DNA of 64,000 nt from Candidatus Nitrosotalea sinensis (GTDB lineage Archaea; Thermoproteota; Nitrososphaeria; Nitrososphaerales; Nitrosopumilaceae): contig NZ_FRFC01000003.1 in NCBI RefSeq assembly GCF_900143675.1, positions 186,001-250,000 of the forward strand, read 5' to 3'. Shown in pieces: positions 3,609 to 8,846 of this stretch (the stretch's first letter is position 1; each line of letters opens with the position of its first letter). Made by a program: the position numbers and the translations under genes. Below the pieces are notes generated by a model. It did no database searches and had not been told where the DNA came from. It saw only the letters and a list, made by a program, of their open reading frames with translations.

Positions 3609-4460
3609 ATGGCAAGACTCTTGCGTAGTCTTTTGTTTGTACCGGGTAATAACAATCGTTTCTTAGAAAAAGCAAAATCTCTTGTGGCAGACATTGTTTG
3701 TTTTGATTTAGAAGATTCTGTTCCATTGGAAGAAAAAAAATCTGCAAGAAACTTGATAAAAAATGCATTGAAAAACAGATCTGAATATGTCTCAGAAATT
3801 TATGTACGAACCAATTCTCCTGTTTCCGGAATGATACCTGAGGATCTGTCCGAAATTGTGCAATCCGGGATTGATGGAATAGTAATTCCTAAGGTGAATA
3901 CCGAAGATGAAATAAGAAAGATTGAAAAAATAATGACAAGTTTAGAAAAAAAACGTTCCCTTAAACCAATAGAATTGATAGCATCGATAGAATCAACACA
4001 AGGTGTTGTAAATGCATATTCTATTGCTTCATGCAATAGAGTTTCAGCACTAGTTTTTGGTGTATTTGATTTACTAAATGACCTAGGTGTGGAATATTCA
4101 AAGAACCCTGAAGGTGCAATATACTCTAGATCAAAAATTCCAATTGATGCAAGAGCAGCAGGAAAATATGCAATAGATGCAATATGGCAAGATCTCGACG
4201 ATACAAAAGGATTAGAAAAAGACTCTATATCTGCAAAAAATCTTGGATATGTAGGAAAAAGCATAATTCATCCTAATCAAATTGATGTTGTTCATCGGAT
4301 ATTCTATCCCACCCCTCAAGAAGTAGAATGGGCAAAAAAAGTCATTAATGCCTATACTTTAGCCAAGAAAAAGAAAAAAGGAGCTACTACTGTTGATGGA
4401 AAAATGATTGATGAAGTACATTACAAAAGGGCTATGGCTTTGATTAATTCTATAAAATGA
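3609..4460 (+). CDS. HpcH/HpaI aldolase, CitE-like (malyl-/citryl-CoA lyase type)
   Basis: A 283-residue TIM-barrel lyase of the CitE/malyl-CoA lyase family. The family N-terminus RSLLFVPGNN, the metal-binding FDLEDSVP near residue 33, the arginine in YVRTNSP near 65, and the IESTQGV segment near 120 with its metal-ligand Glu are all present. The C-terminal GKSIIHPNQI signature is also there. Such enzymes cleave or form CoA-linked hydroxy acids; the substrate cannot be told from sequence. It is close behind the MDR reductase, suggesting joint action on CoA thioesters. Confidence 0.8.
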   Translation: MARLLRSLLFVPGNNNRFLEKAKSLVADIVCFDLEDSVPLEEKKSARNLIKNALKNRSEYVSEIYVRTNSPVSGMIPEDLSEIVQSGIDGIVIPKVNTEDEIRKIEKIMTSLEKKRSLKPIELIASIESTQGVVNAYSIASCNRVSALVFGVFDLLNDLGVEYSKNPEGAIYSRSKIPIDARAAGKYAIDAIWQDLDDTKGLEKDSISAKNLGYVGKSIIHPNQIDVVHRIFYPTPQEVEWAKKVINAYTLAKKKKKGATTVDGKMIDEVHYKRAMALINSIK

Positions 4461-4517
4461 GTATCTTGATCATATTTGATAAACATAAATCATCTCAATG
4501 TGAATGAAAAACCAGTA

Positions 4518-5108
4518 ATGTTTACCGGAATAATTGAAGGTCTTGGAAAGATTGTCAAATTTGGTACAACAACAAATAGCCGTAGTGCAGCAAAAATGCA
4601 CATTGATCTTGGTAGAATTTCTAGGGGTCTCAAAGTAGGAGATAGTGTAGCTATTAATGGCGTTTGTCTTACAGCAATCAAAATTTCAAAAGGAATAACA
4701 GAATTTGAAATGATTGGTGAAACGATCAAAAAAACTAATCTAGGATCATTGCAACGTGGTGATAAAGTAAACATAGAACGAAGCTTAAAAATTGGTCAAC
4801 GATTAGAAGGTCATTTTGTACTAGGACATGTTGATGGAGTTGGTATTATCTCTAAAATTGAAAAACAATCTAATCAAATACAACTTTGGATAAAAATTCC
4901 ACAAGAATTATCAAAGTATGTCATCAAAAAGGGTTCAATTACTGTTGATGGAATTAGTTTAACAGTAGTAGATGTGTTGAAAAACCAATTCTCTGTTTCT
5001 TTAATACCACACACTGTGAAAATAACTAATCTTAGTTACAAAAAAATTGGCGATAAAGTTAATATTGAAACTGACATCCTTGGAAAATACATTTTATCTG
5101 ATGATTAA
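4518..5108 (+). CDS. ribE: Riboflavin synthase, bacterial two-domain type
   Basis: Converts two 6,7-dimethyl-8-ribityllumazine molecules into riboflavin. Two lumazine-binding barrels are visible: the first starts MFTGIIEGLG and contains VGDSVAINGVCLTA, the second contains GHFVLGHVDGVG and KGSITVDGISLTV. The ATG at 4518 is preferred over an upstream TTG because MFTGI is the conserved enzyme N-terminus. Many archaea use an unrelated one-domain riboflavin synthase, so a bacterial-type enzyme beside archaeal-type GTP cyclohydrolase III is a mosaic pathway. It is followed by ribB after a promoter-bearing 74-base gap. Confidence 0.93.
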   Translation: MFTGIIEGLGKIVKFGTTTNSRSAAKMHIDLGRISRGLKVGDSVAINGVCLTAIKISKGITEFEMIGETIKKTNLGSLQRGDKVNIERSLKIGQRLEGHFVLGHVDGVGIISKIEKQSNQIQLWIKIPQELSKYVIKKGSITVDGISLTVVDVLKNQFSVSLIPHTVKITNLSYKKIGDKVNIETDILGKYILSDD

Positions 5109-5111
5109 TCT

Positions 5112-5136
5112 ATTACCATTATAGTGGTAATTACCA
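5112..5136 (+). promoter_or_regulatory. Palindromic candidate operator before ribB
   Basis: Three copies of the half-site TTACCA/TGGTAA lie here. One pair forms ATTACCA-(6)-TGGTAAT, and the second and third join as the perfect 12-base palindrome TGGTAATTACCA (5125-5136). The block ends 14 bases before the TATA-like element of ribB, a good place for a regulator. A riboflavin regulator such as RbkR is a natural candidate, but that is inference. Confidence 0.5.
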
Positions 5137-5148
5137 ATTTTCGAGTAA

Positions 5149-5159
5149 GATTTATAACA
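5149..5159 (+). promoter_or_regulatory. TATA-like promoter of ribB operon
   Basis: The element gatttataaca is centred 29 bases before the ribB ATG at 5183, consistent with a leaderless transcript starting near the ATG. It implies that ribB and the genes behind it can be transcribed separately from ribE. Confidence 0.55.
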
Positions 5160-5182
5160 TTAGTGAAAAGCTGATCATATGT

Positions 5183-5863
5183 ATGTCTCTAGATGAAGCA
5201 CTAACATCACTTCGTAGAGGTGATTTTATTTTGCTCCATGATGGAGGAAAACGTGAAAATGAGGTAGATATGGTTGTTGCAGCAGAATTTGTAACTCCTG
5301 AGCATATTGCACGTATGAGAAAAGATGCAGGGGGTCTAATTTGCATGTCTATCAATCATGGATTTGCATCTAATTTAGGATTGAACTATATGCATGAAAT
5401 TCTTTCTACATCACAAAATTTTGACTCTGGATTAAAAAAGATGATTATTGGTACTGCACCTTATGGGGATAGGCCATCATTTTCAATTTCAATTAATCAC
5501 AAGGATACATTTACCGGGATTACCGACAAAGATAGGGCACTTACTATTTACGAAATGTCTCAACTATTCAAAAATAACAAACCTGACAAAAAAGAAATTT
5601 TCAATTCAAATTTTAGAACACCTGGTCATGTGCCATTACTTATAGCATCAGAAGGATTGTTGTCCAATAGGCTTGGGCATACTGAAATGTCGATTTATCT
5701 AATGAAACTTGCAGGACTCTCACCAGTTACAGCAATATGTGAAATGTTAGATTCTCAAACATATGCCGCATTATCCACTAAAAAAGCACAAGAATACGCA
5801 AAAAATAATGCTATACCATATTTTGATGGTACTGAACTTGTCAAACTTGCTAGGGGGAATTAA
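5183..5863 (+). CDS. ribB: 3,4-dihydroxy-2-butanone 4-phosphate synthase
   Basis: Makes the four-carbon unit of riboflavin from ribulose 5-phosphate, with formate released. The 226-residue protein carries the acidic active-site segment RENEVDMVVAAE (residues 24-35), the TPEHIARMRKDAGGLIC helix, and a C-terminal region with RTPGHVPLL and GLSPVTAICEM. It is a stand-alone RibB, not fused to GTP cyclohydrolase II, in keeping with the separate GTP cyclohydrolase III two genes downstream. ribH begins two bases after the stop. Confidence 0.93.
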   Translation: MSLDEALTSLRRGDFILLHDGGKRENEVDMVVAAEFVTPEHIARMRKDAGGLICMSINHGFASNLGLNYMHEILSTSQNFDSGLKKMIIGTAPYGDRPSFSISINHKDTFTGITDKDRALTIYEMSQLFKNNKPDKKEIFNSNFRTPGHVPLLIASEGLLSNRLGHTEMSIYLMKLAGLSPVTAICEMLDSQTYAALSTKKAQEYAKNNAIPYFDGTELVKLARGN

Positions 5864-5865
5864 AA

Positions 5866-6282
5866 TTGAATATTGCAATTGTTGCTGCTGAGTTTAATAG
5901 TGAAGTGACTTCAAAAATGCTTGAACTTGCTAGAGAAAAAGCACATGCATTGAAAATAAATGTCAACCACATATGTAGAGTACCTGGAGTATTTGATATG
6001 CCTCTTTTGATTGATGTATTGCTACAAAGAAAAGATATTGATGCGATAGTGACTATTGGAGCAGTAATTAAAGGACAAACCAAACATGATGAACTAATCT
6101 CAAATGTAACTGCAAAGATATTATCGGATCTTTCTATAAAATATCAAAAACCAGTAACTTTGGGAATAACTGGTCCTGGAATGAGTGATAGACAAGCACA
6201 TCAAAGAATCAGGCCTGTATCTGAAAGGGCTGTAGAAGCTGCTAAGAAATTATTTGATGAATTGGAAAAGATTAGAAAATGA
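5866..6282 (+). CDS. ribH: 6,7-dimethyl-8-ribityllumazine synthase
   Basis: Condenses the RibB product with 5-amino-6-ribitylamino-uracil to give the lumazine that RibE uses. The 138-residue length fits the family. Visible features are the VAAEFNSEVT N-terminus with the substrate-binding aromatic residue, the PGVFDMPL segment near residue 45, and the ITIGAVIKGQT-H-type loop (VTIGAVIKGQTKHDE) with its catalytic His. The start is TTG, two bases after ribB. The stop overlaps the ATG of the next gene. Confidence 0.92.
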   Translation: MNIAIVAAEFNSEVTSKMLELAREKAHALKINVNHICRVPGVFDMPLLIDVLLQRKDIDAIVTIGAVIKGQTKHDELISNVTAKILSDLSIKYQKPVTLGITGPGMSDRQAHQRIRPVSERAVEAAKKLFDELEKIRK

Positions 6283-7031
6283 TACAGATAACTATAATCA
6301 AGATTACTGGATATGGTCCATGGACCCTAACTCTTGGTAGCGATAGAGAACACAGGCTACAGATACTCCAAGCACAATTATACAAAGAGATTCAAAATTT
6401 ATTTTCTCAAAAGAATTGCCTTGCATTTCCAAATAGATTCGATGAAATATTTGTGATAACAAATGGCCTTTCAATAGATGATCATACTGAAATACAAAAA
6501 CAATTGATAAAATTATTTGATTTGGGATTATCCATGTCTATAGGGCAAGGAAATACCCCTCTGGAGGCAAGTGTAAATGCAGACAAGGCAAGACGATCTA
6601 AAACAAGCCTGAACAAGGATTATGATATCTTTGGATTACCTATGAAAGAAGATGCGGATTTAGTTCAAATTATACATATGGATGTGGATGGCTCTACATC
6701 AGTTTCTGCAAAAAAATCTCCTTATGAGGTGTCATCACTTGTCATAAAACTATATTCCGAAATGTCTGAATTTTTCTTACAAAAAAATTCACTTGCATTT
6801 TTTATGGGTGGAGATAATTTTATGATAATAAATTCTCAAGCAAATAAAAATGACATAACTCAATTTCTTGAAATTATTAAACAAAAATATGATATCTCAT
6901 TTAACTGTGGAATTGGAACTGCAAAGACAGGAAGAGATGCAGCAAGATTAGCTACTCAATCATTAGATAAGATTCGCCAACTCCGTGATTCTGGAAAAAA
7001 AGATACACGAATTCTTGAATTAACATGCTGA
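6279..7031 (+). CDS. arfA: GTP cyclohydrolase III (ArfA, formylamino-pyrimidine forming)
   Basis: First enzyme of archaeal riboflavin synthesis: opens GTP to a 2-amino-5-formylamino pyrimidine nucleotide. The protein is 250 residues and has the family N-terminus KITGYGPWTLTLGSDREH and the FPNRFDE motif. HMDVDGST near residue 130 carries metal-binding acids in a cyclase-like fold, and FFMGGDNFM lies near 175. It starts with ATG overlapping the ribH stop. No bacterial GTP cyclohydrolase II is present here, so the pathway entry is archaeal. Confidence 0.93.
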   Translation: MIQITIIKITGYGPWTLTLGSDREHRLQILQAQLYKEIQNLFSQKNCLAFPNRFDEIFVITNGLSIDDHTEIQKQLIKLFDLGLSMSIGQGNTPLEASVNADKARRSKTSLNKDYDIFGLPMKEDADLVQIIHMDVDGSTSVSAKKSPYEVSSLVIKLYSEMSEFFLQKNSLAFFMGGDNFMIINSQANKNDITQFLEIIKQKYDISFNCGIGTAKTGRDAARLATQSLDKIRQLRDSGKKDTRILELTC

Positions 7032-8215
7032 TAAAAAACATCAGTCTTCTTTATGGTGTAGAACTAACTTATATACAAAATACAAACGTACGAATTTCAG
7101 GAAAAAACATTGAACAGATAGGTGTAAAGATCACTCCTAAAAAAAATGAGATCGTTCTTGATTGTGAGGGAATTTTAATGATGCCTGGGCTTATCAATTC
7201 TCATACTCATATTGGTGATTCAATAGCAAAAGATATTGGAATAGATTCTGATGTTGAAGAAAAAATACATCCGGTAAGTGGATTCAAACAAAAAGTATTG
7301 AAAAATTCTACTAAATCACATCTTACAAGTTTTATAAAAAATTCTTGTATCTCAATGATGAAGAAGGGTATAACCTCTTTCATTGATTTTAGAGAAGGTG
7401 GATTAGATGGAGTTAGTCTGTTGAAAAATTCATCTACTGATATTCCTATACGATCAATTATTCTAGGAAGGGCAGAATATTATCAAGATGTACAATCTAT
7501 CAAAAAGAATACTCCTATACCACCATATCATATACAACATATTCAAAATCTCCTCATGAATTGTGATGGACTTGGAATCAGTGGTCCAAATGAATTTAGT
7601 AATTCTGCATTGACCTCTTTTGCCAAAACAACAAAGATTCGTGCAATACATTCTGCTGAAACTGAAGAAAGTAATCAAATATCAAAAAAAATTACTGGAA
7701 AAACCGAGACTCAGAGAGCACTACTGGTAAAACCTAACTTTCTTGTTCATATGACATATGCCTCAAAAAAAGATCTAGCAATGGCTGTACGAAATAAGGC
7801 AAGTATTGTTGTGTGTCCACGAGCAAACGGATCTCTTGCAGAAGGTATTCCTGATGTAGATCTAATGCTTGAGGCTGGATGTAATGTTGCAATTGGAACT
7901 GATAACGTCATGATAAACTCACCTGATGTGTTTAGAGAAATGGATTATTTGTGGAAGGTTTCAATGGGCATGAAGAAAAAAAGATTGGAAGCAAAAGATA
8001 TACTCAAAATGGCTACCACTAATGCCTCAAACATCTTAGGTAAGAAAATAGGAGTTGTACAAAATAACAAAATAGCTGATTGCATATTTATAGAAAAACA
8101 CTCTATTGATCTAGAGCCTATGCATAATCCACATGCATCAATAGTGCAAAGAGCCTCAGAAAATACCATAAGAGCAGTAATGTATGAAGGAGAAATAGTG
8201 TATGGTAAAATCTAG
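7025..8215 (+). CDS. Cytosine-deaminase-like amidohydrolase in the riboflavin operon
   Basis: A 396-residue metal-dependent hydrolase of the COG0402 deaminase branch. Visible residues: SHTHIG with metal ligands H60 and H62, IHSAETE with H209 and the deaminase proton-shuttle Glu E212 (HxxE), H242 in VHMTYA, and D293 in IGTDN. The fold acts on C-N bonds in purine or pyrimidine rings. It overlaps arfA by 7 bases and arfC by 14 bases, so it belongs to this operon. The archaeal pathway still needs a formamide hydrolase (ArfB) and a pyrimidine deaminase, neither of which is otherwise seen here. A deaminase role is favoured by E212, but unproven. Confidence 0.8.
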   Translation: MLIKNISLLYGVELTYIQNTNVRISGKNIEQIGVKITPKKNEIVLDCEGILMMPGLINSHTHIGDSIAKDIGIDSDVEEKIHPVSGFKQKVLKNSTKSHLTSFIKNSCISMMKKGITSFIDFREGGLDGVSLLKNSSTDIPIRSIILGRAEYYQDVQSIKKNTPIPPYHIQHIQNLLMNCDGLGISGPNEFSNSALTSFAKTTKIRAIHSAETEESNQISKKITGKTETQRALLVKPNFLVHMTYASKKDLAMAVRNKASIVVCPRANGSLAEGIPDVDLMLEAGCNVAIGTDNVMINSPDVFREMDYLWKVSMGMKKKRLEAKDILKMATTNASNILGKKIGVVQNNKIADCIFIEKHSIDLEPMHNPHASIVQRASENTIRAVMYEGEIVYGKI

Positions 8216-8846
8216 ACCTTATGTGATAATTAGTGCTGCAATTAGTATTGATGGAAAGATAGCAACTAACACTGGTAGATCAAATCTCTCATCCAAGAAA
8301 GATTTGATTCGAATTCATGGTTTACGAAAGAGTGTTGATGCAATACTTGTAGGAAAAAATACTGTACAAACAGATGACCCATTACTTACAGTACGTTATG
8401 TAAAGGGGAAAAGCCCGATTAGAATTATTCTTGATCCTAGAGGGAAATCATCCGCTAAATCAAAAGTAATAATGACTGCAACCAAAATTCCGACTATTAT
8501 TGTAACATTAGAAAATGTTTCAAAAAATGATGAAAAATTTATTGCACATGGAGTTCAGATGATAAAATGCGGAAAAAAAATAATTAATTTAAAAAAACTA
8601 TTGCAAATTCTAAAAAAACAAGGAATAAACAAAATACTAGTAGAAGGAGGTGGAACTACGAATTGGTATTTTCTCAAACAACAACTTGTAGATGAAATTA
8701 TAGTTACTGTTGCACCATATATTGTTGGAGGTAGAACTGCAATCTCTTTTGTAGAAGGTAAAGGCTTTACAAAAATATCAAATTCATTTAAACTAAAAAA
8801 AATACAGAGAATGCAAAATGAGCTAGTTTTATACTATGTTACCTAG
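8202..8846 (+). CDS. arfC: 2,5-diamino-6-ribosylamino-pyrimidinone 5'-phosphate reductase
   Basis: Reduces the ribosyl side chain of the riboflavin pyrimidine intermediate to ribityl using NAD(P)H. The 214-residue DHFR-like protein has SAAISIDGKIAT near residue 11, the GKNTVQTDDPLLTVR nucleotide-site segment near 51, and VEGGGTTNW near 147. It corresponds to the RibD C-terminal (Rib7) domain with no attached deaminase domain, which leaves the deaminase step to another protein. It converges on the TFE gene, with a few bases of overlap at the stops. Confidence 0.92.
   Translation: MVKSRPYVIISAAISIDGKIATNTGRSNLSSKKDLIRIHGLRKSVDAILVGKNTVQTDDPLLTVRYVKGKSPIRIILDPRGKSSAKSKVIMTATKIPTIIVTLENVSKNDEKFIAHGVQMIKCGKKIINLKKLLQILKKQGINKILVEGGGTTNWYFLKQQLVDEIIVTVAPYIVGGRTAISFVEGKGFTKISNSFKLKKIQRMQNELVLYYVT

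Follow-up and report, generated by a model that had tools for sequence, protein, structure and literature searches.

Deamination of the ArfC product is needed for the de novo synthesis of both flavins and F420 in archaea. The deaminase domain of RibD and Rib2 carries out the same pathway reaction, step order aside, as is proposed here for a COG0402-type amidohydrolase (AmH), but this domain has a CDA fold and is unrelated to AmH in fold and motifs. COG0402 contains many purine and nucleoside deaminases, and also hydrolases that are not deaminases. The MTA, SAH and 5'-deoxyadenosine deaminases of this group (MtaD/DadD, TM0936) have the fold and the catalytic residues in common with AmH but belong to another clade, carry mostly M, E, F and G at the positions of D65, K88, E124 and N294 of AmH, and are never linked to riboflavin genes in the genomes studied here. 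The isocytosine deaminase Vcz (7ww2, 8is4) is similar to AmH in fold, with a TM-score of about 0.85, and Vcz as well as guanine deaminase offer a similar chemistry, the removal of the 2-amino group from a 2-amino-4-oxo pyrimidine ring. However, these two enzymes show only 16-19% identity to AmH and act on free bases, whereas the substrate inferred for AmH is a ribityl-phosphate pyrimidine. The 2-amino-4-pyrimidinone ring found in the ArfC product is that of an isocytosine, and the chemistry proposed for AmH thus has a precedent in the COG0402 fold. AmH finds its best family match in PRK07213/NF005552, a model that carries no riboflavin or F420 function; strong members of PRK07213 occur in Methanocaldococcus jannaschii and Haloferax volcanii (E <= 1e-60) and in Methanosarcina acetivorans, and Sulfolobales-like AmH orthologs score under the NF005552 cut-off.

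For haloarchaeal riboflavin synthesis, PMC8305020 describes three gaps as left and gives candidates for two of them, citing Rodionova et al. (2017). That paper names HVO_1235 for ArfB and, in its Table 6, HVO_2483 (34% to MJ0699), and the phosphatase EC 3.1.3.104 is still listed as a gap. As this is the sole listed gap remaining, HVO_2483/MJ0699 would be the deaminase candidate, the main text naming no step. The gap inferred for AmH and for these candidates is the same, and MJ0699/HVO_2483 probably belong to the AmH family, since both organisms have strong PRK07213 members. A preliminary description of the locus, made from the DNA letters, had called the archaeal deaminase "not generally assigned". 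This holds at the experimental level, and in the literature searched no experimental test of the predicted family was found; it seems not to hold for predictions, as that of 2017 appears to name the family. In their pathway descriptions, two other papers (one being PMC13028884) name no archaeal deaminase gene, and some papers pass over the archaeal deamination enzyme by writing "RibD" or "conserved".

The riboflavin operon of Candidatus Nitrosotalea sinensis

The window, i.e., the whole stretch of DNA analysed, comprises 64,000 nucleotides (contig NZ_FRFC01000003.1, positions 186,001 to 250,000) of a genome of 1.6 Mb that is 99.9% complete. AmH forms part of a co-directional run, ribE-ribB-ribH-arfA-AmH-arfC, at positions 4476-8846 of the plus strand:

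4476..5108, + strand: ribE, bacterial-type riboflavin synthase (Lum_binding), from ORF, Pfam and NCBIfam
5183..5863, + strand: ribB, DHBP synthase, from Pfam and NCBIfam
5866..6282, + strand: ribH, lumazine synthase, from Pfam and NCBIfam
6279..7031, + strand: arfA, GTP cyclohydrolase III (GCH_III), PF05165 at 5e-53
7025..8215, + strand: AmH, COG0402-type amidohydrolase of the PRK07213/NF005552 family, from ORF, Pfam, NCBIfam, AF2 model and Foldseek
8202..8846, + strand: arfC, archaeal diaminopyrimidinone phosphate reductase, PF01872 (RibD_C) and TIGR01508

The AmH reading frame is intact, begins with ATG and encodes 396 amino acyl residues; it overlaps arfA (end at 7031) by 7 bp at its 5' end and arfC (start at 8202) by 14 bp at its 3' end. 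Pfam detects the TIM-barrel amidohydrolase domain (Amidohydro_1, PF01979, 7e-37) and not the creatininase fold (PF02633), and NCBIfam assigns the protein to NF005552/PRK07213, "chlorohydrolase", with 333.6 bits, above the curated cut-off of 294. ArfC obtains 195.4 bits with the model for archaeal ArfC (TIGR01508, cut-off 186.45) and consists of RibD_C only, the CDA fold (PF00383) being absent from both AmH and ArfC in the Pfam scan. The preliminary description had reported an amidohydrolase with H60, H62, H209, E212, H242 and D293 inside the riboflavin operon, overlapping arfA and arfC, next to an ArfC that lacks a RibD deaminase domain; all of this was recovered, including the residues at these very numbers. 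GTP cyclohydrolase II was not found in the genome.

The ribE reading frame begins at a TTG, and its domain match starts from residue 15, which corresponds to an ATG at 4518. Directly upstream of ribE lies a gene for an HpcH/HpaI (CitE-like) lyase (3609-4460, + strand), and such a neighbour of riboflavin genes recurs in other ammonia oxidisers (L062, L063, and L151). Riboflavin synthase in the ammonia oxidisers studied here is of the bacterial type (Lum_binding), and most other genomes with the pathway encode a second, weaker PF00885 protein, which may be an archaeal-type riboflavin synthase.

Gene order and co-occurrence in archaea

The order of genes around AmH recurs in the ammonia oxidisers examined, i.e., RibB-RibH-ArfA-AmH-ArfC, and far beyond them, which argues that the placement of AmH in the operon is not due to chance. 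When 300 sampled genomes of the phylum were scanned with NF005552, all those of the three ammonia-oxidiser families among the matches listed had scores above 300 bits. In family f21, whose genomes we read as Sulfolobales-like, the order is RibB-x-RibH-ArfA-AmH, and in f18 it is ArfC-ArfA-RibB-RibH-AmH; in f35, f30, f53 and others AmH adjoins ArfC, and in Bathyarchaeia-like metagenome-assembled genomes (MAGs) it adjoins riboflavin genes. The arrangement of the ammonia oxidisers, RibB-RibH-ArfA-AmH-ArfC, is also present in the Asgard-like Jordarchaeum (L091). Two contigs with bacterial titles, ES-bin-123 (L078) and Burkholderiales palsa_1002 (L104), carry archaeal-type AmH genes, the former within a full run of riboflavin genes; both are probably mis-binned.

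For co-occurrence, 80 genomes of the phylum, one per genus, were scanned with profiles for ArfC, AmH, PF00383, creatininase, ArfA, RibH, and CofG. AmH orthologs were called at a threshold of at least 190 bits, and those of G010 (161 bits) and G074 (140 bits, on a long branch) were added by tree position and signature. All 39 genomes with ArfA and RibH possess AmH, versus 3 of the 41 others (Fisher p about 1e-19, a value that ignores relatedness and therefore overstates independence). The presence of AmH follows the riboflavin/F420 pathway over 14 families, and within families f5, f16, and f24 both are present or absent together. One genome (G086) has AmH, ArfA, and RibH and no recognisable ArfC. 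Three others (G050, G052, and G218) have an ArfC-like protein, and AmH, ArfA, and RibH were not found in them; as they are without ArfA and RibH, they should not be riboflavin makers by the ArfA/RibH route. Their ArfC-like reductases (L157, L159, and L161, respectively) possibly have another function or are relics.

All three genomes that encode AmH outside the ArfA plus RibH set (G019, G109, and G234) have ArfC. In G109 (L052) and G019 (L054), AmH-ArfC is directly followed by CofG-CofH, both of which score above their NCBIfam cut-offs at the G019 locus, and neither ArfA (PF05165) nor GTP cyclohydrolase II (PF00925) nor an intact RibH was found in these two genomes. In G234, which is 62% complete, AmH adjoins a CofH-like gene, and G182 combines AmH-ArfC-creatininase-CofG-CofH on one strand. 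The routes to riboflavin and F420 are common only up to 5-amino-6-ribitylaminouracil (PMC8498797), and together with the cofG-cofH operons this places AmH in the shared pyrimidine branch, before the two routes split. Once ArfA, ArfC and the ArfB fold are assigned to their reactions, deamination and the phosphatase are the steps left, and of these two it is deamination that suits a COG0402 enzyme carrying the HxxE/H/D set.

Catalytic residues and proposed reaction

AmH has the full COG0402 deaminase set, consisting of HxH, HxxE, His, and Asp, and in an alignment of 58 AmH orthologs H60, H62, H209, E212, H242, and D293 are invariant. By COG0402 deaminase precedent, we take H209 to be a metal ligand and E212 to be the proton-shuttle Glu of deaminases. 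D65, E124, and N294 are also invariant in the 58 orthologs, and 22 paralogs mostly have M, F, and G there. The residues map as follows:

7202..7210, + strand: H60-T-H62, metal-binding motif, invariant in both the orthologs (58/58) and the paralogs (22/22)
7217..7219, + strand: D65, signature residue, Met in 20/22 paralogs
7286..7288, + strand: K88, signature residue, Lys in 57/58 orthologs and Glu in 21/22 MTA/SAH-deaminase paralogs
7394..7396, + strand: E124, signature residue, in 58/58 orthologs, mostly Phe in paralogs
7649..7660, + strand: H209-xx-E212, invariant in 58/58 orthologs
7748..7750, + strand: H242, catalytic His, invariant in 58/58
7820..7822, + strand: R266 in the CPRAN motif, in 54/58 orthologs, V/T/S/I in paralogs
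7901..7906, + strand: D293, metal/catalytic Asp, and N294, signature residue, Gly in 20/22 paralogs

The AlphaFold2 model of AmH has a mean pLDDT of 95.9 and matches COG0402 deaminases in Foldseek with E-values down to 1.7e-25, the nearest solved structures being those of adenosine/MTA deaminases, triazine hydrolases, the isocytosine deaminase Vcz, and guanine deaminases. The preliminary description had taken AmH for the missing deaminase, and this is supported by the co-occurrence, the riboflavin and F420 operon context, the gaps in the distribution of CDA-fold proteins (see below), the deaminase catalytic set, and the structural likeness to isocytosine and guanine deaminases. On this genomic and structural basis, AmH is very probably the enzyme that deaminates the pyrimidine in the riboflavin/F420 pathway of archaea.

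In the reaction that we propose, one divalent metal bound by H60, H62, H209, and D293 would activate a water molecule, E212 and H242 (with D293) would shuttle protons, and the water would attack C2 of the isocytosine-type ring in 2,5-diamino-6-ribitylamino-4(3H)-pyrimidinone 5'-phosphate, the ArfC product. K88, E124, R266, and N294 might recognise the pyrimidine and the ribityl-phosphate. The products would be ammonia and 5-amino-6-ribitylaminouracil 5'-phosphate, and after dephosphorylation by a phosphatase, 5-amino-6-ribitylaminouracil would be available to RibH for riboflavin and to CofH/CofG for F420. AmH would in this way be a non-homologous substitute for the deaminase domain with CDA fold that bacteria have in RibD. 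The order of deamination by AmH and reduction by ArfC cannot be fixed from sequence, and the gene order arfA-AmH-arfC is neutral in this respect; however, a scheme other than the one proposed here seems rather improbable, as the pathway descriptions in PMC13028884, citing Graupner et al. (2002), and in PMC3403918 put reduction before deamination in archaea.

Related enzymes and alternative assignments

As COG0402 includes so many purine-type enzymes, and as the nearest solved relatives of AmH by sequence profile are MTA/SAH and adenosine deaminases, AmH might be thought an ordinary purine or nucleoside deaminase, acting on MTA, SAH, 5'-deoxyadenosine, or guanine and present in the operon as a passenger. 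The phylogeny speaks against this. In a tree of 80 proteins (58 AmH and 22 paralogs; quick search with SH-aLRT support only), the 22 paralogs form one strongly supported clade apart from AmH, and the three of the 22 that were scanned match models for MTA/SAH/deoxyadenosine deaminases. None of the 22 paralogs is linked to riboflavin genes, versus 43 of the 58 AmH proteins, and AmH stays far under the cut-offs of the MtaD/DadD-type models PRK06038, PRK07228, and PRK15493. The two groups also differ at D65, E124, and N294, and at position 88 with Glu in the paralogs and Lys in AmH, and the distribution of AmH over the 14 families follows the pathway. We therefore discard an MTA/SAH-type deaminase by tree and signature, and the passenger reading as a whole appears very unlikely.

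As a fallback, the preliminary description had considered AmH to be a formamide hydrolase of the ArfB type, acting on the ArfA product as a deformylase in place of the creatininase-fold ArfB. The overlap of AmH with arfA and the ability of COG0402 folds to hydrolyse other C-N bonds could speak for it, as could one genome (G125, L047) in which AmH, ArfA, ArfC, and RibH are present and a creatininase was not found. The arfB homolog that the preliminary description wanted sought elsewhere may have a counterpart in the only creatininase-family protein of the Nitrosotalea genome (G000:C3:268653-269312, 18.7 kb past the end of the window), which reaches just 57 bits with the curated ArfB model (cut-off 180), also a point in favour of the fallback, and which is a candidate for ArfB. 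Nevertheless, the fallback is contradicted and very improbable. A creatininase is retained by 38 of the 39 pathway-positive genomes, and HxxE/H/D is the set of a deaminase. The PRK07213 family also occurs in M. jannaschii, for which ArfB is known from experiments as a pathway enzyme (Grochowski et al., 2009, as cited in PMC9478397). AmH and creatininase coexist in one run in G182 and in two MAGs (L073 and L074, RibH-ArfA-AmH-ArfC-creatininase), and the single run RibB-RibH-ArfA-AmH-ArfC-creatininase argues that AmH is not the deformylase. The gene for the ArfB candidate of Candidatus N. sinensis (L065:7618-8325, - strand) overlaps that of a PurU-like formyltetrahydrofolate deformylase by 4 bp.

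That a CDA-fold protein encoded elsewhere is the deaminase and AmH is otherwise employed is hardly credible and is rejected as a general answer: a PF00383 protein does occur in the Nitrosotalea genome and in 28 others of the 39, but none was found in 10 of these 39 pathway-positive genomes, including an ammonia oxidiser with the same operon (G197), its presence shows no association with the pathway in the 80 genomes (p = 0.16), and the single PF00383 protein that the check for a dedicated deaminase yielded in the Nitrosotalea genome (G000:C4:163607-163981) best resembles ComEB/dCMP deaminase, yet scores below the ComEB model cut-off. PF00383 was likewise not found in the controls M. jannaschii and Sulfolobus acidocaldarius.

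It is likely that the whole AmH subfamily of COG0402 is the archaeal riboflavin/F420 pyrimidine deaminase, resembling isocytosine deaminases and evolved independently of the CDA-fold domain of RibD/Rib2; in this likely reading the subfamily spans ammonia oxidisers, Sulfolobales-like archaea, Bathyarchaeia-like MAGs, and an Asgard-like MAG. It probably extends to methanogens and haloarchaea, and the AmH family is probably that of the candidate MJ0699/HVO_2483 of Rodionova et al. (2017). Beside this likely published prediction, the present analysis brings together the operons of ammonia oxidisers and of an Asgard-like archaeon, the cofG-cofH operons, the co-occurrence in one genome per genus with the absences of CDA-fold proteins, the arguments that set AmH apart from ArfB, and the signature residues. 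If the assignment is true, the phosphatase would be the main step remaining, and AmH would close a gap in both cofactor pathways, correct the label "chlorohydrolase", and represent a clean case in which a core enzyme of a vitamin pathway has been replaced by a non-homologous one.
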